Positions 2,631-32,255 of a DNA stretch of 64,000 nt are shown one piece after another. How positions within the stretch are numbered: the first letter of the stretch is position 1; each line of letters opens with the position of its first letter. Below the pieces are notes generated by a model, which did no database searches, had not been told where the DNA came from, and saw nothing but the letters and a program-made list of their open reading frames with translations. Both the position numbers and the translations under genes were made by a program. The stretch is from Dehalococcoidia bacterium (GTDB taxonomy: Bacteria; Chloroflexota; Dehalococcoidia; DSTF01; JACRBR01), in assembly GCA_021731085.1 (NCBI GenBank), contig JAKFYB010000002.1:62001-126000 (forward strand), read 5' to 3'.

Positions 2631-4061
2631 CTAGCTTCGAGATGCCTGCCAGGTCAACACTCGCTGTACAGCAAGCGTCGCGTCGCGCACGCTGTTAAAC
2701 ACAGGCAGTCCTGCATCGGCGACGTTCTGCTGGAATGCGAGCGTCCCCGCCATGCCCATCTCGGTCGTTGGGATGCGGGCGACGCACACAATCGGCTTGC
2801 CGGACTCCTTGCCGACCTCTCCAAGCTTCTGTGCAGCCTCCGACGCCACTTCGACGATGCTCGGGCCTTCAGCGCGCATGGCGCCCCAGGAATAGCTGGT
2901 GTGGTACAGGATGTAGTCGATGTTGGGAGACTCCGCGACGATGCGGATCGTGTCGAGCATCGGCTTCAGGCCATCAGGGCCCCAACCTACGCTCGTGTCC
3001 ACCGGATTGCGGACGCTTGTACCCGCGGTCGGCGTGAAGTCGTGCAGCTTTTGCTGGATGTCGGCTGGAAGTGTCGGCATTTCTAGGCCGGATGCACCGA
3101 TCTCATCGGAGGCGAGCACGCTATACCCGCCACCGCCGCCGACGATACCGGCGCGTGGACCCGCGAGCTTCGGCAGATACCGGAACGCGACGACCTGGTC
3201 GACCAGTTCTTCCATGCGATCCACGCGCACGGCGCCGGCCTGACGCACCGCCGCATCGAACACCTGTAGCGAACCCGCAAGGCTGCCTGTGTGCGACGCC
3301 GTGGCGCGCGAACCTGCTTCTGTGCGCCCTCCCTTGAGAATCACGACCGGCTTCGCAGCAGCGGCCTTACGTAGCGCACGCATGAAGTGCGCACCATCTG
3401 TGATGCCTTCGATGTAGCAGGCAATGACTGAAGTCTCAGGATCTTCGGCACAGTACTCCAGGAGTTCGGACTCACGAACATCAGTCCCGTTGCCGTAGCT
3501 GACAACCTTGCTATAGCGAAGGCCGCGCACAGCCCCCGTCCGGCAGAATTCACCCGCATTCGCACCGGACTGTGAAAGCATCGCCACTGGTCCGGGATCC
3601 GTGGGCAGAAACGGCATGAAGGACAGGCCAGACGCCGGCGAGTAGAGCCCCATGCAGTTCGGCCCAATCACCCGGATGCCGGCATCGGCTGCCCGCTGAA
3701 GAATGCGCGCCTCCAGCGCCGTCGCATCCTCGTCGCCTGTTTCGCTAAAACCTGCGGTGAAGAAGTGGACGACCTTCACGGCCTTCGCCACGCACTCGTC
3801 CATCAGGCCCTCCACGAATCGCAAAGGGACGGACGAGATCACGTGATCGACGTGGCCCGGGATCGCTGTCAGGTTTGGATAGCACTTGAGGCCGGCGATC
3901 TCCTCAGCCTTGGGATTTACCGGATAGAGGTCGCCGTTGAAGCCCATCTCCTTCGTCGCGGCGACGAACGAACCTGGGCCGTCCTGCGTCGATGCCCCGA
4001 CGACGGCGATAGAGCGCGGATGAAACATGAAATCGAGCGCGGAAAAGCTGCCCTCGGGCAT
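2631..4061 (-). CDS. ADP-forming acyl-CoA synthetase, alpha-type subunit (CoA-binding)
   Basis: 476 residues, related to the alpha subunit of ADP-forming acetyl-CoA synthetase and succinyl-CoA ligase, which interconverts acyl-CoA + ADP + Pi with acid + CoA + ATP. The N-terminal Rossmann CoA-binding domain has SIAVVGAS at about 17-24. GPNCMG near 133 and the phosphohistidine loop ASHTGSLAG, with His at 257, are intact. The beta (ATP-grasp) subunit is not fused and not adjacent, so the partner must be elsewhere. The ATG at 4061 is chosen because AAGGAGA sits 6 bases upstream; a longer frame starts at 4100 without such a site. It converges with the AAA ATPase across a hairpin terminator. Confidence 0.85.
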   Translation of the reverse strand: MPEGSFSALDFMFHPRSIAVVGASTQDGPGSFVAATKEMGFNGDLYPVNPKAEEIAGLKCYPNLTAIPGHVDHVISSVPLRFVEGLMDECVAKAVKVVHFFTAGFSETGDEDATALEARILQRAADAGIRVIGPNCMGLYSPASGLSFMPFLPTDPGPVAMLSQSGANAGEFCRTGAVRGLRYSKVVSYGNGTDVRESELLEYCAEDPETSVIACYIEGITDGAHFMRALRKAAAAKPVVILKGGRTEAGSRATASHTGSLAGSLQVFDAAVRQAGAVRVDRMEELVDQVVAFRYLPKLAGPRAGIVGGGGGYSVLASDEIGASGLEMPTLPADIQQKLHDFTPTAGTSVRNPVDTSVGWGPDGLKPMLDTIRIVAESPNIDYILYHTSYSWGAMRAEGPSIVEVASEAAQKLGEVGKESGKPIVCVARIPTTEMGMAGTLAFQQNVADAGLPVFNSVRDATLAVQRVLTWQASRS

Positions 4062-4119
4062 TGGAGTCTCCTTACGAGTGCGTGCCTGCATTCTGGTCAC
4101 GCCTCACCATTCGCAGAAA

Positions 4120-4142
4120 AAGAGCCGCTCGAAGCGACTCTT
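4120..4142 (-). terminator. Terminator-like hairpin at the predicted 5' end of the CoA-ligase mRNA
   Basis: Ten-base arms with one mismatch (AAGAGCCGCT / AGCGACTCTT) and loop CGA. Read on the minus strand the stem is followed directly by a T tract, as in intrinsic terminators. No minus-strand gene lies upstream, so it could be an attenuator or a 5'-end stabilising structure. Confidence 0.4.
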
Positions 4143-4149
4143 CCCCTCG

Positions 4150-4178
4150 ATCGTATCAGGGCCTTGGAGCGCGAGCAA
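4150..4178 (-). promoter_or_regulatory. Promoter candidate for the CoA-ligase gene
   Basis: On the minus strand TTGCTC, 17 bases, TACGAT. The predicted transcript would begin near 4143 and start with the hairpin at 4120-4142, giving an 80-base leader before the ATG at 4061. Confidence 0.5.
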
Positions 4179-4383
4179 TCGACGCTCGCACAGGTGCAGA
4201 CACCCCAGAACGCCTGGGTGCCGCATAGCCCGATCCCGTTTTTTGGCTTCAGATCTCGCCAACCAAGGGCCTCAATCCCTAACAGGGAGTAGGTGAAGCA
4301 CTTAAGGGTTCTCCCACCCCTGCCGAGCATGACTGTGACGGTTGGTGTGAGCGCCGGGGTTGGCGCGCGAGCAAGGCGGCACA

Positions 4384-5208
4384 ATGCGCATCGTCCCAGA
4401 ACCAGAGGCCAACCCTGTCGCAGCCTTCGTCAGCCGCCACGCACGAGTAGTGGCGTGGGCGGGCATCGGGGCGGCATGCGTTGGCTCCCTGCTTATAGCA
4501 TCCGCAGCCACGAACGCGGGCGCCGCTCCGCCTGCCGCCGCCGTTACGGCAACGCCATCGCCATCCCCTACGGCGACTCGAACAGCGACGCCATCAGCCA
4601 CCGCGACCGCTACTTATTCGCCAACGGCAACGCCCACGATGACGCCTACCGCCACTCAGCGACCCGCGACGAGTACGCCTCGTCCACCGTCCACAACCGT
4701 CCCCGTTGCTGCGACCAGCACATCGGTTCCACCGCCTCCTCCGCCAATTACGACTCCGACGTCGATTCCAGTCCCACCACCTCCGGCCTTCGCGGCGACG
4801 GGCATGGATGGGTATTCACGCGCGCTCTTCGACGCAACGAACGCACGCCGCGCGGGCGTCGGCGTAGCGCCCCTCCGCGAGAACGGCTACCTGAACGCCA
4901 TCGCGAAGCTTCGCTCGGACGAGATGGCACAGCACAACTACTTCGCGCACGTGAGCCCGATTACAGGTGAGAATGTGTTCGCGCTGATGGATCGCTATGG
5001 CGTTCCATATGGCTGGGCAGGAGAAAATCTCGCCAAGAACAACTACCCGGAGAGCGAGTGTGTGCAGGTGGCGGATCAGGCGTTATGGGACAGTCCGTCG
5101 CACCACGAGAACATCGTGAATCCGAACTACACCGACGTGGGTATCGCGCTCACCGTCGATTCGAGTGGCATGAAGTATTTCACGATCGTCTTTACGGGTC
5201 CGCCGTAG
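4384..5208 (+). CDS. Secreted CAP/SCP-domain protein (YkwD-like)
   Basis: 274 residues. A transmembrane or signal segment (about 17-45) is followed by a roughly 90-residue Thr/Pro/Ala-rich linker, then a CAP domain from about 140 to the end. Conserved features are the N-terminal NARRAGVG helix, the histidine of YFAHVSP, WAGENLA and SPSHHENIVNPNY. The domain is of the bacterial YkwD type found in cell-surface proteins; its biochemical role is not settled. The ATG at 4384 is preferred over an in-frame TTG at 4360 because AAGGCGG lies 5 bases upstream. It converges with nuoF, with only 9 bases between the stops. Confidence 0.85.
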   Translation: MRIVPEPEANPVAAFVSRHARVVAWAGIGAACVGSLLIASAATNAGAAPPAAAVTATPSPSPTATRTATPSATATATYSPTATPTMTPTATQRPATSTPRPPSTTVPVAATSTSVPPPPPPITTPTSIPVPPPPAFAATGMDGYSRALFDATNARRAGVGVAPLRENGYLNAIAKLRSDEMAQHNYFAHVSPITGENVFALMDRYGVPYGWAGENLAKNNYPESECVQVADQALWDSPSHHENIVNPNYTDVGIALTVDSSGMKYFTIVFTGPP

Positions 5209-5217
5209 GCGAATTGC

Positions 5218-7101
5218 TCACCCGGCCCGGGCGACATCGGCCGGCGCAATCTCACGCAGTGGAATCAGGCCGTCAAACCGGTCGACAACCGCGACGTCGT
5301 CAGGAGCAACTTCGACGCACGCCCCGCCGCGCGAACAGCGTCCGTCCATATTCGGCTGCACGCCCTTCGCCGCGATGTGGTCCGGACAGATCGCCGCAGC
5401 CTCAGCCAGCGCTGGTGAGTTTCCGACCACGACGTACTTGACCAATCCCTCGCACACTTGCGCCGGACAACGGTGTTCGTTGAGATGGATGTCGTATTCC
5501 TCGCGAAAGTGCTGCAGCGTATTGCGCATGATCGTCGGGGACAGCGTCCCGTGAAAACAGTTCGAATACTGGAACGATGCATCCAGTGACTTGAGATGCG
5601 CCACGTCCTCACCTCGGCCTTCGCCGCGCGACGTGCGTTCGAAGATCTCCACCATACGCTGATTGCCAATACGACATGTCGTGCACCTGCCGCACGATTC
5701 GTCCTCAAGGAAATGCGCCATCATTACGTTGAGGTCGACGACGCAACGGCGATCGTCGAGGAAGATCAGCCCACCTCCGCCCATGCCTGTGCCAAGTTCG
5801 CGAAATGGTTCCGGCTCAAGCCGTAGTGGCCCGGCAACTGCAGCCGGCAAGAGACCAGAAAGCGGCCCGCCTTGCTGGAGCGCCTTGAACGCCAGCCCAT
5901 CGTTGATCCCACCGATGCCGGCGAGCAGTTCATCGACGGTCATGCCGAACGGCACCTCGACGCACCCTGTACGCCCGACATCTCCCGAGACCGTGAACAT
6001 TTTCGTCCCGCGGTTGGCCTCGGTCCCGACCGTGCTGTACGTGTCGGCGCCGACCCGCATCAGTGCCGTCACGCAAGCGTACGTCTCGACGTTGTTGACG
6101 TTTGTTGGCTTGCCGAGGACGCCCGACTGTGCTGGGAATGGCGGCTTGATGCGCGGCATCCCGCGCTCATCGTTTATCGACGAGATGAGCCCCGTCTCGT
6201 CGCCGCACACGTACGCGCCGGCCCCACGCACGACCTCGCACGTGAAGTTCACACCCGTTCCGAGAGCATCGCCCCCTAGGATGCCGCGCTCGAGGCAATC
6301 GGAGATCGCCTTGTTCATCCGCTCGATCGCGAGCGGATACTCGTCGCGCAGGTAAATCCAGCCGTGGGTCGCACCAGTTGCGTAGGCACCGATTAGCAGC
6401 CCCTCGATAAGCGAATGCGGGTCGCTCTCCATGATCACGCGGTTGACCCACGCTCCAGGGTCGCCTTCGTCCGCGTTGCAGACGAGATACTTCGGTTCTG
6501 CCGTCGCATCCTTCAAAAACGACCACTTCGTTCCCGTCGAGAAGAACGACCCTGAGTGCCCGCGAAGCGTCGAGCCCTTGACGAGCTCGATCAGGTCGTC
6601 GCGTGACATCTGGGTTGCCGCGACGAACTGTGCGTACCCGCCCCGACCGATGTATTGCTCCAGGTTCTCCGGATCGATCACACCGCAGTTGTGCATAAGC
6701 CAACGCACCTGCATCTTCGCCCAGTCAAGGTCCCAGAGCTTGGGGATGCCGTCCGCCGCGCCTCCAATGACACCGATTGCAAGGTTCGCCACGACTCCAG
6801 CCGCGGCCGCTACAGCGAAATCCGCGACCTTATCCTGAGTGACGCCCCCGTAGAGGATGTGCTGCCCGTCTGGCTTCCGGACCTGCACGATCGGCTCGGC
6901 CCACGACATACCGTCGTCGCCCGTCTGCATCACATCGAACCCGCCGGAGGCCGCGAGAGCTTCCAAAGCCGCGTAGGTCTCCCGCGCGCCGGCTGCAATC
7001 GACGACGTGTTGATGGACACGACGAACAGCGGACGCGCGGGCTTCTCGACGGCCGTCCAGGCCGCGTCACCAACCACTTTGAGTTCGTCGTAGGTGGGCA
7101 A
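5218..7101 (-). CDS. nuoF: NuoF-like NADH dehydrogenase subunit with degenerate accessory ferredoxin domains
   Basis: 627 residues, of the long HndC/HydB-like NuoF type. The N-terminal thioredoxin-like domain (about 22-98) normally holds a [2Fe-2S] cluster in CxxxxC and CxxxC; here the four positions read S, S, D, S. The glycine-rich FMN/NADH loop is unusual (RGHSGSFFSTGTKW, about 180-193), but NADEGDPG at 209-216 and GAGAYVCGDETG near 293-304 are conserved. The N3 [4Fe-4S] motif ESCGRCTTC (468-476), with a later Cys at 515, is intact. The C-terminal ferredoxin region keeps only scattered cysteines (572, 589, 595). It follows nuoE by 18 bases. No nuoG, hydrogenase or formate dehydrogenase gene is near. 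Likely a soluble NAD(P)H-linked flavoprotein; partner unknown. Confidence 0.85.
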   Translation of the reverse strand: MPTYDELKVVGDAAWTAVEKPARPLFVVSINTSSIAAGARETYAALEALAASGGFDVMQTGDDGMSWAEPIVQVRKPDGQHILYGGVTQDKVADFAVAAAAGVVANLAIGVIGGAADGIPKLWDLDWAKMQVRWLMHNCGVIDPENLEQYIGRGGYAQFVAATQMSRDDLIELVKGSTLRGHSGSFFSTGTKWSFLKDATAEPKYLVCNADEGDPGAWVNRVIMESDPHSLIEGLLIGAYATGATHGWIYLRDEYPLAIERMNKAISDCLERGILGGDALGTGVNFTCEVVRGAGAYVCGDETGLISSINDERGMPRIKPPFPAQSGVLGKPTNVNNVETYACVTALMRVGADTYSTVGTEANRGTKMFTVSGDVGRTGCVEVPFGMTVDELLAGIGGINDGLAFKALQQGGPLSGLLPAAVAGPLRLEPEPFRELGTGMGGGGLIFLDDRRCVVDLNVMMAHFLEDESCGRCTTCRIGNQRMVEIFERTSRGEGRGEDVAHLKSLDASFQYSNCFHGTLSPTIMRNTLQHFREEYDIHLNEHRCPAQVCEGLVKYVVVGNSPALAEAAAICPDHIAAKGVQPNMDGRCSRGGACVEVAPDDVAVVDRFDGLIPLREIAPADVARAG

Positions 7102-7119
7102 TCCGACTACCTGTTCCTG

Positions 7120-7587
7120 CTACTTCTTCAGTTCCCGCACGAGCTTCACGGTGCTCGCAGCCGTCAGTGAACCGACGACTCTTCCGTTTACCCAAACCTG
7201 CGGTGCGTACTCACATGTCCCGTTGCATTGAGCGAAGTGAAGGCCCACCTTGTTGTCGGCGGTATTCTCACCCATACCAACACCCAGCTCGGTCTCGAGC
7301 GCCTTGCGTATGCCGTGGCCGTTCTCGAGTCTGCACGCGAGCCCGCTGCACCAGCCGATCAGCGTCTCAGGTGGCGGCGTCAGCCTGAATTCTGAGTAGA
7401 AGGTGGCCGCGCCGTAGACCTTCGCCTCGCTGAGACGAAGTTGGCGCGCCACTACCTTCAGTGCCATCTTTGGCACATAGCCGTAGTGATGTTGGACCGC
7501 ATGCAACGCGCCCATCAGGTCACCGTCCGCGGGCTTGAACTCGCGTATCAGGTGCTGGATCTCTAGCGTCGCTTCGTTGTCGGGCAT
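7120..7587 (-). CDS. nuoE: NuoE-like [2Fe-2S] subunit
   Basis: 155 residues, thioredoxin-fold subunit that carries the N1a-type [2Fe-2S] cluster and pairs with NuoF. All four ligands are present: Cys80 and Cys85 (CSGLAC), Cys121 and Cys125 (CNGTC). The N-terminal helical part (HHYGYVPKMAL) is typical. GGAG lies 5 bases before the ATG, and a -10 candidate CATAAT is at 7612-7617. It is the first gene of a two-gene operon with the divergent nuoF copy. Confidence 0.9.
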   Translation of the reverse strand: MPDNEATLEIQHLIREFKPADGDLMGALHAVQHHYGYVPKMALKVVARQLRLSEAKVYGAATFYSEFRLTPPPETLIGWCSGLACRLENGHGIRKALETELGVGMGENTADNKVGLHFAQCNGTCEYAPQVWVNGRVVGSLTAASTVKLVRELKK

Positions 7588-7611
7588 GCGTCTCCGACCG
7601 CGTCAGATTCG

Positions 7612-7617
7612 ATTATG
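7612..7617 (-). promoter_or_regulatory. -10 candidate of nuoEF
   Basis: CATAAT on the minus strand, giving a leader of about 20 bases with a GGAG ribosome site. No strong -35 was found. Confidence 0.4.
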
Positions 7618-7679
7618 CGATCTGTCACAGGGTAAGCCAGCCCGAACCGGTGTACAAGGGAACGCGACTTCGGTCGAGT

Positions 7680-8906
7680 CTAGCTAGCGGCAACGACTGC
7701 CGACGCATCCAACGCTTCCACAATACCTTCGCGCAGAAGGTCGAGGCCCCATCGCTTTTCCGCGGACACAAGCACCGCATCCGGAATGTTCTCGGTCAGC
7801 GATCGCTGGAACGAGGATAGCTCGCTCAGTGACGAAGGCAGCCCTCCATCCGCGTCTGCGAGCTGATCGACCTTGTTGAACACGGTGATCCGCGGCTTGT
7901 CAGCGATCTTCAGCTCCGTCAGTGTCTCCTCGACCGTCTGAGACTGGTGGGCCGCATCCGGATGGGTGATATCGACCACGTGCAACAGCAGCGCCGCGTC
8001 CGTCAGCTCCTCCAGCGTCGCGCGAAAAGACGCGACAAGCTGCGTCGGCAACTTTTGGATGAACCCGACAGTGTCCGTCAGCAAAGCCGGGTGCGTGTCG
8101 TCGAGATATACGCGGCGCGTCAGGGGATCCAGCGTCGCGAAGAGCTGATTCTGGACGAAGACATCGTCGTCACGCGTCAGGGCGCGCATCAGCGTGCTCT
8201 TGCCGGCGTTTGTGTACCCGACGAGCGCGACGACCGGCACGCCCTCGCGCTCACGACGCCGACGGTACAGGGACCGCTGCTGCCGGACTTCCTCGATCTG
8301 CTTCTTGAGCTTGGTGATCTTATTGCGCGCGAGCCGCCGGTCGGTCTCTATCTGCGTCTCACCCGGCCCACGCACGCCGATTGCCCCTGGCGCTCCACTG
8401 GCGCCGCTAAGGCGTTCCAGGTGCGACCACTGGCCCTTCAGCCGTGGCAGGAGGTACTCGGTCTGTGCGAGATCGACCTGGAGCCGTCCCTCCCGCGTCC
8501 GAGCGCGCATCGCGAAGATATCCAGGATGAGCGCGGTGCGATCCAGCACCTTCACGTCGAGCGCCTTCTCGAGCTTCTGCTGCTGCGATGGCGAGAGTTC
8601 ATCATCGAAGATAACCATCGTATATTCGCCGTCGCCGTCCGTGGACTGTCCGCGCCGCTTCACAATTTCGTCGAGTTTGCCCTTGCCGATGTAGGTCGCT
8701 GGGTTTGGGGAGTCCATCCGTTGCAACGCGGAGCCCACGACATCTGCGCCGGCCGTCTCGGCCAGCAGGGCGAGTTCCTCGAGTGACGCCTCGCCACGCC
8801 ATCGGTCGCGTTCACTATTCCGCTGCACGCCAACCAGGAACGCCCGCTCGCGTTCCTCAGCGGTGGTCTTCAAAGCCGTTCGGGCGGTTGTGTGGTCCTT
8901 GGGCAT
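7680..8906 (-). CDS. hflX: Ribosome-associated GTPase HflX
   Basis: 408 residues. HflX binds 50S subunits, splits stalled ribosomes and hydrolyses GTP. The N-terminal HflX domain (about 20-200) includes YIGKGKLDEI and RGPGETQIETDRR. A helical linker follows, then the G domain with P-loop GYTNAGKST at 230-238, switch DTVGF, and NKVD. The length is normal. No Shine-Dalgarno is seen before the ATG; a -10-like TACTCT ends 8 bases upstream, fitting a leaderless transcript. It lies 32 bases downstream of rarA and could also be read through from it. Confidence 0.95.
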   Translation of the reverse strand: MPKDHTTARTALKTTAEERERAFLVGVQRNSERDRWRGEASLEELALLAETAGADVVGSALQRMDSPNPATYIGKGKLDEIVKRRGQSTDGDGEYTMVIFDDELSPSQQQKLEKALDVKVLDRTALILDIFAMRARTREGRLQVDLAQTEYLLPRLKGQWSHLERLSGASGAPGAIGVRGPGETQIETDRRLARNKITKLKKQIEEVRQQRSLYRRRREREGVPVVALVGYTNAGKSTLMRALTRDDDVFVQNQLFATLDPLTRRVYLDDTHPALLTDTVGFIQKLPTQLVASFRATLEELTDAALLLHVVDITHPDAAHQSQTVEETLTELKIADKPRITVFNKVDQLADADGGLPSSLSELSSFQRSLTENIPDAVLVSAEKRWGLDLLREGIVEALDASAVVAAS

Positions 8907-29000: not shown

Positions 29001-29546
29001 ATGTCGCGCAAGAAGCGCCAGGAGTCCTCCGACGACGACGTGACGTACTTCGTCACGAACGACATGCGCATGTTCGACGGACATCTCGATCCGGATGATT
29101 GCGAGATCCTGCGTGGCAAGCACCTCATCACGGGCGAAGACGCCCTGCGTCTGGCCGCCGAAGAGCAGGCAAGCAAAGCCGCCGGCTCTGAGGTCGGGAA
29201 GCTCTCCGCAAAGCAGGCTACACTCGAGCCCGGTAAAATCTGCCTGACACCGGAAACGACGACCGAACTCGGCAAAAACGCCATCGCGACGCTAACCCAT
29301 TACGAAGGTCTCGCGTCCGCCCTCGTCACCAGGCTGCCCATTGCGCCCGCCGTCAGGAGCGCCCGCATCGACGACAAGTGCACGTGGCGCGCCGTTGCCC
29401 GCCGCCTGCACGAATCGATGCAGAAGGAGCACCGCCTCGCGACCGGACTGTGGGAGCCCGCATCGAATCAATTGATGGGAATGGCGCTCTGCAAGGTCGC
29501 GGCGCAGACCTACGACGAGGATTTCATGGAAACGCCCTGGAACTGA
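29001..29546 (+). CDS. Conserved-looking protein of unknown function
   Basis: 181 residues, soluble, acidic, no signal peptide or membrane segment. It opens with a charged stretch (SRKKRQESSDDD), then a beta-like VTYFVTNDMRMFDGH, a helical middle (EDALRLAAEEQASKAA) and a C-terminal helical part with LMGMALCKVAAQTYDEDF. I do not recognise the family. It is 9 bases behind the HAD gene, probably its operon partner, and converges with the GGDEF gene. Confidence 0.6.
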   Translation: MSRKKRQESSDDDVTYFVTNDMRMFDGHLDPDDCEILRGKHLITGEDALRLAAEEQASKAAGSEVGKLSAKQATLEPGKICLTPETTTELGKNAIATLTHYEGLASALVTRLPIAPAVRSARIDDKCTWRAVARRLHESMQKEHRLATGLWEPASNQLMGMALCKVAAQTYDEDFMETPWN

Positions 29547-29567: not shown

Positions 29568-30755
29568 CTAACCCCGAAGCCGCTCGCCTGCAGCCCGTGC
29601 CAAAGGATTGGCCCCACGCATCGCGTCGGCCTTCGCTTGCTCTTCTCGTTCACGCTTCGCTTGGTCGAGATCGCTCGTAGCGCTGTCTAGCAGGTCCTTC
29701 GCCGATGCTCCATCCTCCGGAAAACAGACGATTGCAACGGATGCCTTCAGCGGCTCCGGCGACCCGTCCTGACCAAAGATCGAGACCTGCGAAAGGCTAG
29801 CGAGGAGGCGCGTCGTCACTTGCACGGCAGCCGCGCGGTTCGTCTCCGGCAGCAAGATCGCGTACTCGTCCGGACCGATGCGCGCAACGATCTCTGGTGG
29901 CGACACGGCCTCGGCGAGCGACACTGCAGCGCTGCGAAGGAGTTTGTCGCCCATCGACTGCCCGTAGTTGCTATTGAAATCCCCGAATCCATCGATGTCC
30001 AGCACGACGAGGGACAGAATCTTCGCGTAGCGCCCGCAACGGATGAGCTCCGCCTCGATCGCTTCACCCATGTAGCGTCGGTTGTACACCCAGGTCACCG
30101 GATCGATGTCGTTGAACCGCGCCGTGTCTTCCTGTGTTGCGATGTCGCGCAGTGCAAGCGTGAAGTGCCCAACAAGGAGCTCCACAATTTCGGCATCGAC
30201 CTTCGTGTGGTCAAACGCGAACATCACGACGCCATACGGCTCCCCCTCGACGAGCATCGGCACCATCGCCACACGCTTGATACCGAGCTTGGCCTCAGCT
30301 TCCTGCACCCGCTCGGCGTCGAACGTGCCTTCCCAGAATTCGACCATCGAGTCCCGCATGACGACCTCGCCGCCTTCGATGATCAGTCGTCGGAAGTGGT
30401 TTACCGGCAGCTCCAGTTCCATCGCCGTCAAGTCTTCCTGGAACGCATCCATGACCTTCTCGAATCGAGATTCGACGATGCCCTCGAGTGGTGCTGTCGT
30501 CAGCGTGTCGCGCTTCTTGTCCAGCGTGAGGGGATACACGAAGATCGACTCCGTCACACTGGGCGCTTTCTCAAGGAATGCCGACATCATCTCGCCCGTA
30601 CTGCCGGCGCTGTGCAGGAAGAGCGACAGGATCACGAGGTCGAACAGGCGACCCTCGCGTCCTTCGGGGCGCGACATCTCAAGCGACTCGATCGCCACGA
30701 ACGGTTCGGGCGACTTCGTCTTGTCTTTCTTTGTGGTGAGCCAGTTCAAGGGCAT
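29568..30755 (-). CDS. GAF-GGDEF protein with degenerate GGDEF signature
   Basis: 395 residues. Residues about 35-205 look like a GAF-type sensor; residues 212-370 are a GGDEF domain. DPVTWVYNRRYM and the metal Asp in VLDIDGFGDF (253) are recognisable, but the signature is GPDEY (294-298) instead of GGDEF, and no RxxD inhibitory site precedes it. Diguanylate cyclase activity is therefore doubtful; it may bind nucleotide as a sensor or be a regulator. No membrane segment, so cytoplasmic. It lies 9 bases behind the repeat-protein gene and is surely co-transcribed. Confidence 0.85.
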   Translation of the reverse strand: MPLNWLTTKKDKTKSPEPFVAIESLEMSRPEGREGRLFDLVILSLFLHSAGSTGEMMSAFLEKAPSVTESIFVYPLTLDKKRDTLTTAPLEGIVESRFEKVMDAFQEDLTAMELELPVNHFRRLIIEGGEVVMRDSMVEFWEGTFDAERVQEAEAKLGIKRVAMVPMLVEGEPYGVVMFAFDHTKVDAEIVELLVGHFTLALRDIATQEDTARFNDIDPVTWVYNRRYMGEAIEAELIRCGRYAKILSLVVLDIDGFGDFNSNYGQSMGDKLLRSAAVSLAEAVSPPEIVARIGPDEYAILLPETNRAAAVQVTTRLLASLSQVSIFGQDGSPEPLKASVAIVCFPEDGASAKDLLDSATSDLDQAKREREEQAKADAMRGANPLARAAGERLRG

Positions 30756-30764
30756 CGCCCGTTC

Positions 30765-32255
30765 CTACTCTTCCTGAATCTTTATGACCATCGTCTGTTC
30801 GTTGTGCACTTCCACCAGCGTCTCGCGGCTCATCACCCGGCCGACTGCAAGCCGCAGCACCTCTGGATCAAGGGGACCGACGCTCTCGATGAGCACCATC
30901 GCAACGCCGTTGCTATAGCTAAGGAGCGACATGTCCTTCACGCTGTCGAGGCCCTGCATCGCGCGATGTAGGGGCACGAGGTCGACACCGCGTCGCTTGT
31001 CCTCGACCGTGATGCGGTACTGCCGCGGGATACGATCGTCGAGATTTCCGTCGGCATCGATTGCCCGCAAGCGCGCCGCCGGCTTTTCAGGCAGGAGCGC
31101 GGGCTCTTCCACAAGTTCCACTGCGGTGGCCGTCTGCGGTGAGGGGTCACGATAGACCGTTGGCCGTGGCGGTGCCCCAAACTGCATGCTCGAAACCTGC
31201 GGCCGGTCGTCCCATTCGTCATCATCAGCAGCGGCGGCCGAAGGCCGCACAACGCTCAGTGGCTTTGGTGCATCGCTAACCGCGCCAGCTCCGAGGAGCC
31301 GCTCCAGTTCCGCGATGCGCGCGGCCATGGCACGCACTTCGCGCTGCGCATCCTGCAACCCCTGCTCTAGCCGGAGTGCCGCGATCTCCCATGTCGAGGC
31401 TTCACCCAACAGCCGCTCGTCGCGCCCGGGCCACGGCGTTGCCTCCGGCCGCGCGTCATCATCATGCGGCGCCGCACGCAGGATCGACTCGGCTTCAGCC
31501 ACCTTGATCGCTTCCTCAACAGGGTCGGGGCTTTTGAACACGGACGAAACTGAGATCACGGCCTCATCATCGACCTCGGATGACTGCACCGCCTGAGCCT
31601 GCACCCGCCGAATCGTCGCCTCAATCGGATATTCGTCATCGTCATCGTCTGCAGCATCAACGGCAGACGATGCCTGTGCGGCCTGCGCTTGTACCCGGCG
31701 AATCGTCGCCTCGATCGGATCCTCGTCAACTTCATCGCCTGCAGCATCGACGGCAGGCGATGTCTGCGCGGCCTGCGCCTGTACTCGGCGAATCGTCGCC
31801 TCGATCGGATCCTCTTCCTGCCCAGTGACGATAGGAGCAGGTTCGGTAGTTTCGATTGCCTGTGCCTGCACGCGCCGGATCGTCGCCTCAATCGTGTCTT
31901 CGTCCGCTCCAGTCGAAGTATCAGGAGCAGCATCCGCTTCCAGCGATGTGCGCGCGGCCTGTTCCTGCACCCTCCGTATCGTCGTCTCAATCGGATCTTC
32001 GTCCTCGGGCGCAGGCGCTTGCGATGATACTGGCGCGAAATCATCGGCGTGCGCGGCTGCCTGTTCGCGCACGCGGCGTATCGTCGCCTCGATCGGATCC
32101 TCTTCCTCGGACTTTGCTTCCTCAGGCGCCGCTGCTGCCTGAGCCTCGTACGCGGCTGCCTGCGCCTGGACGCGGCGGATGGTCGCAGTGATGCGATCCA
32201 TATCGGGCGCGCTTACTTCGTCGCCCGACTGTTCTTGATCGTTGTCTCTTGCCAT
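30765..32255 (-). CDS. Seven-repeat protein with C-terminal ferredoxin-like domain (inferred)
   Basis: 496 residues, cytoplasmic. The motif IEATIRRVQAQA occurs seven times, starting at residues 22, 55, 89, 122, 151, 181 and 211; spacing is 33, 34, 33, 29, 30, 30. Acidic Pro/Ala-rich spacers separate the short amphipathic helices. A coiled coil follows (about 290-321), then a disordered linker, then a C-terminal domain (about 410-496) with alternating strands and helices (RQYRITVEDK, VAMVLIES, QTMVIKIQE). No known family is recognised. AGGAG lies about 12 bases before the ATG. It is the first gene of an operon with the GAF-GGDEF protein, so a scaffold or localisation factor for that protein is a reasonable guess. 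Confidence 0.75.
   Translation of the reverse strand: MARDNDQEQSGDEVSAPDMDRITATIRRVQAQAAAYEAQAAAAPEEAKSEEEDPIEATIRRVREQAAAHADDFAPVSSQAPAPEDEDPIETTIRRVQEQAARTSLEADAAPDTSTGADEDTIEATIRRVQAQAIETTEPAPIVTGQEEDPIEATIRRVQAQAAQTSPAVDAAGDEVDEDPIEATIRRVQAQAAQASSAVDAADDDDDEYPIEATIRRVQAQAVQSSEVDDEAVISVSSVFKSPDPVEEAIKVAEAESILRAAPHDDDARPEATPWPGRDERLLGEASTWEIAALRLEQGLQDAQREVRAMAARIAELERLLGAGAVSDAPKPLSVVRPSAAAADDDEWDDRPQVSSMQFGAPPRPTVYRDPSPQTATAVELVEEPALLPEKPAARLRAIDADGNLDDRIPRQYRITVEDKRRGVDLVPLHRAMQGLDSVKDMSLLSYSNGVAMVLIESVGPLDPEVLRLAVGRVMSRETLVEVHNEQTMVIKIQEE
31590..32192 (-). repeat. Coding tandem repeat (seven units, last three with 90-base period)
   Basis: Seven units of 87-102 bases encode IEATIRRVQAQA plus spacer. 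Units 5, 6 and 7 are spaced exactly 90 bases, and the DNA at 31697-31724 and 31787-31814 is nearly identical, so duplication is recent. Copy number may vary between strains. Confidence 0.8.

Follow-up and report, generated by a model that had tools for sequence, protein, structure and literature searches.

The locus examined here raises the question of what a protein built from short repeated helices does when it is encoded directly upstream of a GGDEF protein whose signature has degenerated. Domains of this kind occur frequently, most of them without an explanation, and here one has a genetically fixed partner that carries an undescribed domain. The locus lies in a window (the whole stretch of DNA that was analysed) of 64,000 nucleotides from a Dehalococcoidia bacterium, a member of a group for which most knowledge comes from metagenome assemblies. 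The original prediction had described a two-gene operon and had proposed that the repeat protein gathers or positions the GGDEF protein or its partners. Its coordinates, the count of seven motif copies, their spacing of 29-34 residues and the gap of 9 bases between the repeat protein gene and the GGDEF gene, both on the minus strand, were all found to be correct on recount (Table 1).

Table 1. Positions of the two paired genes and their parts in the window, and of related arrangements on other contigs.
Feature	Sequence	Position	Strand	Remarks
GAF-GGDEF protein with degenerate signature	window	29568..30755	-	395 aa
GGDEF domain	window	29640..30110	-	residues 216-372; Pfam PF00990
GPDEY, replacing GG[DE]EF	window	29862..29876	-	signature position
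SPPE, replacing RxxD inhibitory site	window	29892..29903	-	I-site position
GAF region (approximate)	window	30147..30623	-	Pfam GAF_2 in 12 of 16 orthologs
Intergenic gap, 9 bp	window	30756..30764	-	TAGGA overlaps upstream gene's stop codon
Repeat (scaffold-like) protein gene	window	30765..32255	-	496 aa
C-terminal domain (CTD), part conserved in every paired homolog	window	30768..31025	-	residues 411-496; alignment, leave-family-out searches, predicted fold
Predicted coiled-coil segment	window	31281..31403	-	about residues 285-325; heptad heuristic
Motif copy 7, IEATIRRVQAQA	window	31590..31625	-	start residue 211
Motif copy 6, IEATIRRVQAQA	window	31680..31715	-	start residue 181
Motif copy 5, IEATIRRVQAQA	window	31770..31805	-	start residue 151
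Motif copy 4, IEATIRRVQAQA	window	31857..31892	-	start residue 122
Motif copy 3, IETTIRRVQEQA	window	31956..31991	-	start residue 89
Motif copy 2, IEATIRRVREQA	window	32058..32093	-	start residue 55
Motif copy 1, ITATIRRVQAQA	window	32157..32192	-	residues 22-33
Convergent pair, GGDEF gene	G000:C5 (L095)	6384-7451	+	same genome
Convergent pair, CTD protein gene	G000:C5 (L095)	7541-8230	-	same genome
Coiled-coil CTD protein, then membrane GGDEF protein	G011:C19 (L087)	3583-6486	+	third subfamily
CTD protein without GGDEF neighbour	G000:C7 (L080)	6532-7215	-	third subfamily, GFQGLM type

The motif copies fall between residues 22 and 222 of the repeat protein at spacings of 33, 34, 33, 29, 30 and 30 residues, and each matches IEATIRRVQAQA at 10 to 12 of 12 positions. 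The best single 12-mer obtained in 2000 shuffles of the protein had 8 identities. The IEATIRRV core is encoded five times in the DNA of the 3.58-Mb genome, each time within this gene. Codon differences between the copies are mostly synonymous (copies 4 and 5, for example, differ by five synonymous and no nonsynonymous changes across their 8 core codons), so the motif is under selection and is not the product of recent duplication alone. The composition of the protein, 22% acidic and 9% basic, falls in the disordered range of a charge-hydropathy plot, and its N-terminal part is acidic and of low hydropathy. A proline-free heptad stretch at residues 292-319 lies within the predicted coiled coil, which is followed by a low-complexity linker and the CTD. 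No membrane segment was detected in the protein, its highest 19-residue hydropathy (1.21) being located inside the CTD, and no Pfam family matched it at E values up to 1. The anatomy of acidic N-terminal part, short helices, coiled coil and terminal domain is thus scaffold-like, as originally proposed.

Comparison with homologs divides this protein into parts of unequal constancy. IEATIRRV-type motifs were restricted to family f1, where they occur in 2 to 7 copies, and even the nearest relative, with a GGDEF protein 92% identical, has three copies against seven in the window protein; a truncated gene in genome G003 contains five by reading. Homologs in family f4 carry FxxVWxRL-type helices and those in f3 carry VRRAVExARAEL-type helices. 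Neither the IEATIRRV type nor the other helix types were found, by the patterns used, in the homologs of family f2 and of the more distant genome G038. A helical segment of coiled-coil type was found in nearly all homologs. The repeats are therefore the variable part of the protein, and the helical segment and the CTD the constant parts.

The C-terminal domain was predicted to fold as b-a-b-b-a-b plus a last strand over 86 residues, with a mean pLDDT of 89 in a model derived from two sequences, in agreement with the alpha/beta domain originally described. A search with this domain, which the original prediction had proposed, placed it in no known family of Pfam, NCBIfam or the PDB, and gave no match better than E 1 to solved structures. 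Foldseek comparison of the model returned nothing at E 0.001 or better. The best VIA-align matches were eL22 (Z 7.5, rmsd 2.7, 79 residues aligned), FtsQ (Z 6.6) and an HMA domain (Z 6.5); as judged from the model, these matches reflect only a common ferredoxin-like arrangement, and they span ligand-binding, metal-binding and purely structural domains. Across the phylum, just four weak matches to the CTD profile lay outside the class. The CTD is an undescribed domain.

The pairing itself was assessed by a profile search with the GGDEF protein, which found full-length homologs in 17 of the 393 genomes of the class, with scores of at least 469 bits; the next match, at 162 bits, covered the C-terminal part only, mainly the GGDEF domain. 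These 17 genomes are members of a single order (families f1 to f4) and the more distant G038. In the neighbourhood survey, a CTD protein was encoded directly upstream of the GGDEF homolog in all 17, on the same strand and at a distance of -4 to +51 bp. The first CTD alignment was built from these upstream proteins themselves, and the test was repeated leaving each family out; the resulting profiles recovered the upstream protein of the omitted family with E values of 1e-29 to 2e-6. Strong CTD matches (E below 1e-20) were found in 19 genomes, namely the 17 and two others, G003 and G013, in which the CTD gene is at a contig end and its neighbour falls outside the sequence. In f1 the pair is bordered on one side by aroQ, pepQ and efp and on the other by HAD and TIM-barrel genes; these neighbours are not conserved beyond that family and differ in the others, so the pair is held together and not the locus. 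What stays constant in the system is thus the pairing of CTD and GGDEF protein, and the gene pair is real, conserved and undescribed. The original prediction had tied the repeats to the pseudo-GGDEF protein, and had named homologs that lack repeats and are unlinked to GGDEF genes as evidence against itself. Repeat-less homologs do exist (f2 and G038), all still paired with a GGDEF protein; the link between the two genes was upheld, with the CTD in place of the repeats as its conserved element. A scan for promoters and terminators was uninformative, and no paper joining Dehalococcoidia with GGDEF was found in the literature searched. On the other side of the GGDEF gene, and convergent with it, lies a gene for a 181-residue protein (29001-29546, plus strand) with no Pfam match; the one homolog seen, in the nearest relative, is 47% identical.

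The GGDEF domain of the downstream protein matches PF00990 with an E value of 2.2e-30 (106 bits against a cut-off of 23.8), and all 16 orthologs exceed the cut-off. The GAF region is under the Pfam cut-off in the window protein and was recognized through its orthologs (best E 2.9e-7); since the structure predicted for the full protein was unusable (mean pLDDT 38.8), this assignment rests on sequence profiles alone. Within these bounds the description as a GAF-GGDEF protein with a degenerate GPDEY signature was sound. Relative to the canonical 6zxm domain, which served as the comparator for active-site residues, TGL is changed to TWV, DIDKFK to DIDGFG, IND to FNS, RKSD to SPPE and GGEEF to GPDEY. 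The protein retains the first Asp of DxD, the Asn, the Gly-Asp and the acidic residue of the signature. By reference to PleD, the residues lost are those of phosphate contact and of the I-site, and those that contact metal and base are kept. The protein lacks the glycine pair of the GG[DE]EF signature and the phosphate-site Lys, which are sequence marks of an active diguanylate cyclase, and also RxxD five residues before the signature, the mark of an I-site receptor. Degenerate receptors of the PopA/CdgA type also reuse the GGDEF domain non-enzymatically, but they sense c-di-GMP at an RxxD I-site that has stayed intact; in the present proteins the site reads SPPE, APPE or xEPE.

The same losses recur among the orthologs. 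Throughout f1, f2 and f4, GP, KD, GN, GD, NN or QD stands in place of the glycine pair. At the phosphate site, Lys has given way to G, A, S, T or R in these three families and to G in f3, and RxxD is absent from f1-f4, with xPPE or xEPE at the I-site position. P287, R292 and D296 are invariant among the 16 orthologs, which places the altered I-site region, too, under constraint. The window protein is, on its residues, probably no longer a normal diguanylate cyclase. The signature in f3 is GGDEF or GGDDF; loss of activity is thus perhaps not universal, and some members could be enzymes. Eight of nine other GGDEF domains examined in this genome have a canonical GGDEF/GGDEL signature, and two further decayed paralogs were found at L094 and L095. 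The L094-type gene (G000:C5, 7479-8477, plus strand), which lies beside trxA/trxB with rpoC nearby, encodes a GAF-like protein whose GGDEF domain has no signature and has no CTD gene next to it; L100, L101 and L104 are similar.

CTD-like domains also occur in other arrangements. A second subfamily, homologous to the first with an hhalign profile-profile probability of 96%, is encoded convergently with a GAF-GGDEF paralog that has decayed further, both in this genome and in G005, G006, G014, G015 and G017. A shared promoter cannot keep convergent genes together, and a functional relation between the CTD and degenerate GGDEF domains is therefore the simplest reading. In G011, a third-subfamily coiled-coil CTD gene is separated by about 10 bp from a gene for a membrane protein with a degenerate GGDEF domain (GEAGF). 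In the GGDEF paralogs that accompany CTD proteins, the active site is gone entirely. Near the second-subfamily pair, a membrane coiled-coil gene precedes in G014 and G015, and csrA and a sigma-factor gene are nearby in G014. The third-subfamily protein at L080 is a coiled-coil protein whose gene is convergent with a recF-like gene. Since CTD-like domains also end coiled-coil proteins of this kind, which have no GGDEF neighbour, any GGDEF docking would not be the only role of the CTD. Proteins like that at L080 were also seen in other genera of the class and belong to no Pfam family.

The original prediction knew of no described system with this pairing. A functional precedent, in unrelated proteins, is provided by HubP and PdeB of Shewanella, in which HubP uses its FimV domain to bind PdeB at the altered I-site of a degenerate GGDEF domain, and this GGDEF domain binds GTP and not c-di-GMP (PMC9061725). 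Like the repeat protein, HubP has a large acidic unstructured cytoplasmic region, with imperfect repeats, that ends in a small C-terminal domain (PMC9061725, PMC12918733), and both have a degenerate GGDEF partner with a lost I-site; direct binding is known for HubP and, given the gene pairing, may hold here too. HubP/FimV proteins differ in their periplasmic LysM domain, transmembrane segment and helical TPR FimV domain, and PdeB in its additional EAL domain, in place of which the window partner has GAF; a further difference is that the genes form a unit here. Membership of the HubP/FimV family was rejected, as neither LysM nor the FimV TPR was matched in Pfam or NCBIfam, no membrane segment is present and the CTD model is alpha/beta. 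The original prediction had also noted a likeness to PopZ, in which a client-binding helix at the N-terminus is combined with an acidic disordered region and a helical domain for oligomerisation (PMC9512792). The short-motif resemblance held, I-x-A-[ST]-I-R-R-[IV] being similar to the PopZ-type EEILASIRRII helix. The acidic spacing is alike as well, and the repeat protein would share with PopZ a build of short client-binding helix, disordered acidic stretch and region for oligomerisation; in contrast to PopZ, the helix is repeated here and the C-terminus is alpha/beta and not helical. Kinship was not supported: the PopZ/DUF2497 profile (PF10691) found nothing at the repeat gene, although the Caulobacter control scored above its cut-off, and it gave a single chance-level match elsewhere in the genome (12.4 bits against a cut-off of 27). 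The resemblance may be a lead on how the repeats work.

By analogy, a mechanism like that of HubP-PdeB is the best-supported, and the pair would then represent a known principle in a new form rather than a new kind of system. We propose a two-protein signalling scaffold, in which a self-associating CTD protein docks a non-cyclase GAF-GGDEF protein, and we give this reading an even chance of being right. The soluble, largely disordered acidic repeat protein would self-associate through its coiled coil, and its ferredoxin-like CTD would dock the GAF-GGDEF protein, probably on the side of the GGDEF domain where the conserved xPPE has replaced the old inhibitory site. The GGDEF protein would have been retained for docking and sensing, with its GAF region providing the input, and may still bind GTP. 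The IEATIRRV helices of f1 would offer several equal docking sites for a third partner, which different short helices, or none, may recruit in other families. The CTD would thus stand for FimV, the soluble coiled coil for the membrane and LysM anchor, and GAF for EAL. The pairing suggests, and does not prove, that the repeat protein docks and positions the GGDEF protein; gene pairing is not proof of contact, and it is from the pairing that we infer docking by the CTD. If the scaffold reading is true, the HubP-PdeB principle would have a second example in unrelated proteins, with a constant partner-binding part cleanly separable from a variable, likely client-binding part.

A working, feedback-free diguanylate cyclase with an odd signature, localised or activated by the repeat protein, would account for the retained DxD, N, GD and acidic signature residue, for the invariant D296 and for the intact signature of f3, and about ten HD-GYP-type places in the genome could degrade its product; we nevertheless think it unlikely given the replaced glycine pair in f1, f2 and f4, the changed phosphate-site Lys in f1-f4, TWV in place of TGL, and the CTD-paired paralogs without any active site. 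It is similarly improbable that the two proteins act in one pathway without touching, each binding a third component, with the CTD as an oligomerisation or ligand-binding domain. The coiled-coil CTD proteins without a GGDEF neighbour and the breadth of the CTD fold matches would fit such an arrangement, but three independent gene arrangements link the CTD with a degenerate GGDEF domain, one of them convergent and so free of shared transcription.

The repeats could also be weak membrane-binding amphipathic helices and the protein a peripheral membrane organiser, as their several copies and moderate amphipathic moment (0.45-0.61) would allow. This is very unlikely, however, because the helices are near-neutral, of low mean hydrophobicity and set in an acidic protein, ill-suited to anionic membranes, and the amphipathicity of the window's own motif does not exceed that of its shuffles (0.23 of which reach the same value). 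A more far-reaching idea is that of an organising hub specific to Chloroflexota and separate from both PopZ and HubP. In it, a pseudo-GGDEF protein that senses GTP and is bound to the CTD would control a multivalent assembly, client-binding helices would be swapped between families, and docking core and client code would evolve separately; we regard it as speculative and rather improbable.

Returning to the host of the scaffold candidate, profile matches in the genome comprised twelve GGDEF and about ten HD-GYP-type domains, with no EAL and no PilZ match (the assembly, a MAG, being 97% complete). Based upon these matches a c-di-GMP system probably exists in the host, with an unusual read-out. 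One further gene (G000:C12, 73664-74140, plus strand) encodes a GGDEF domain with a GDDEF signature and other changes, possibly a degenerate cyclase; an HD-GYP-type gene lies convergent to it at a distance of about 1.2 kb.
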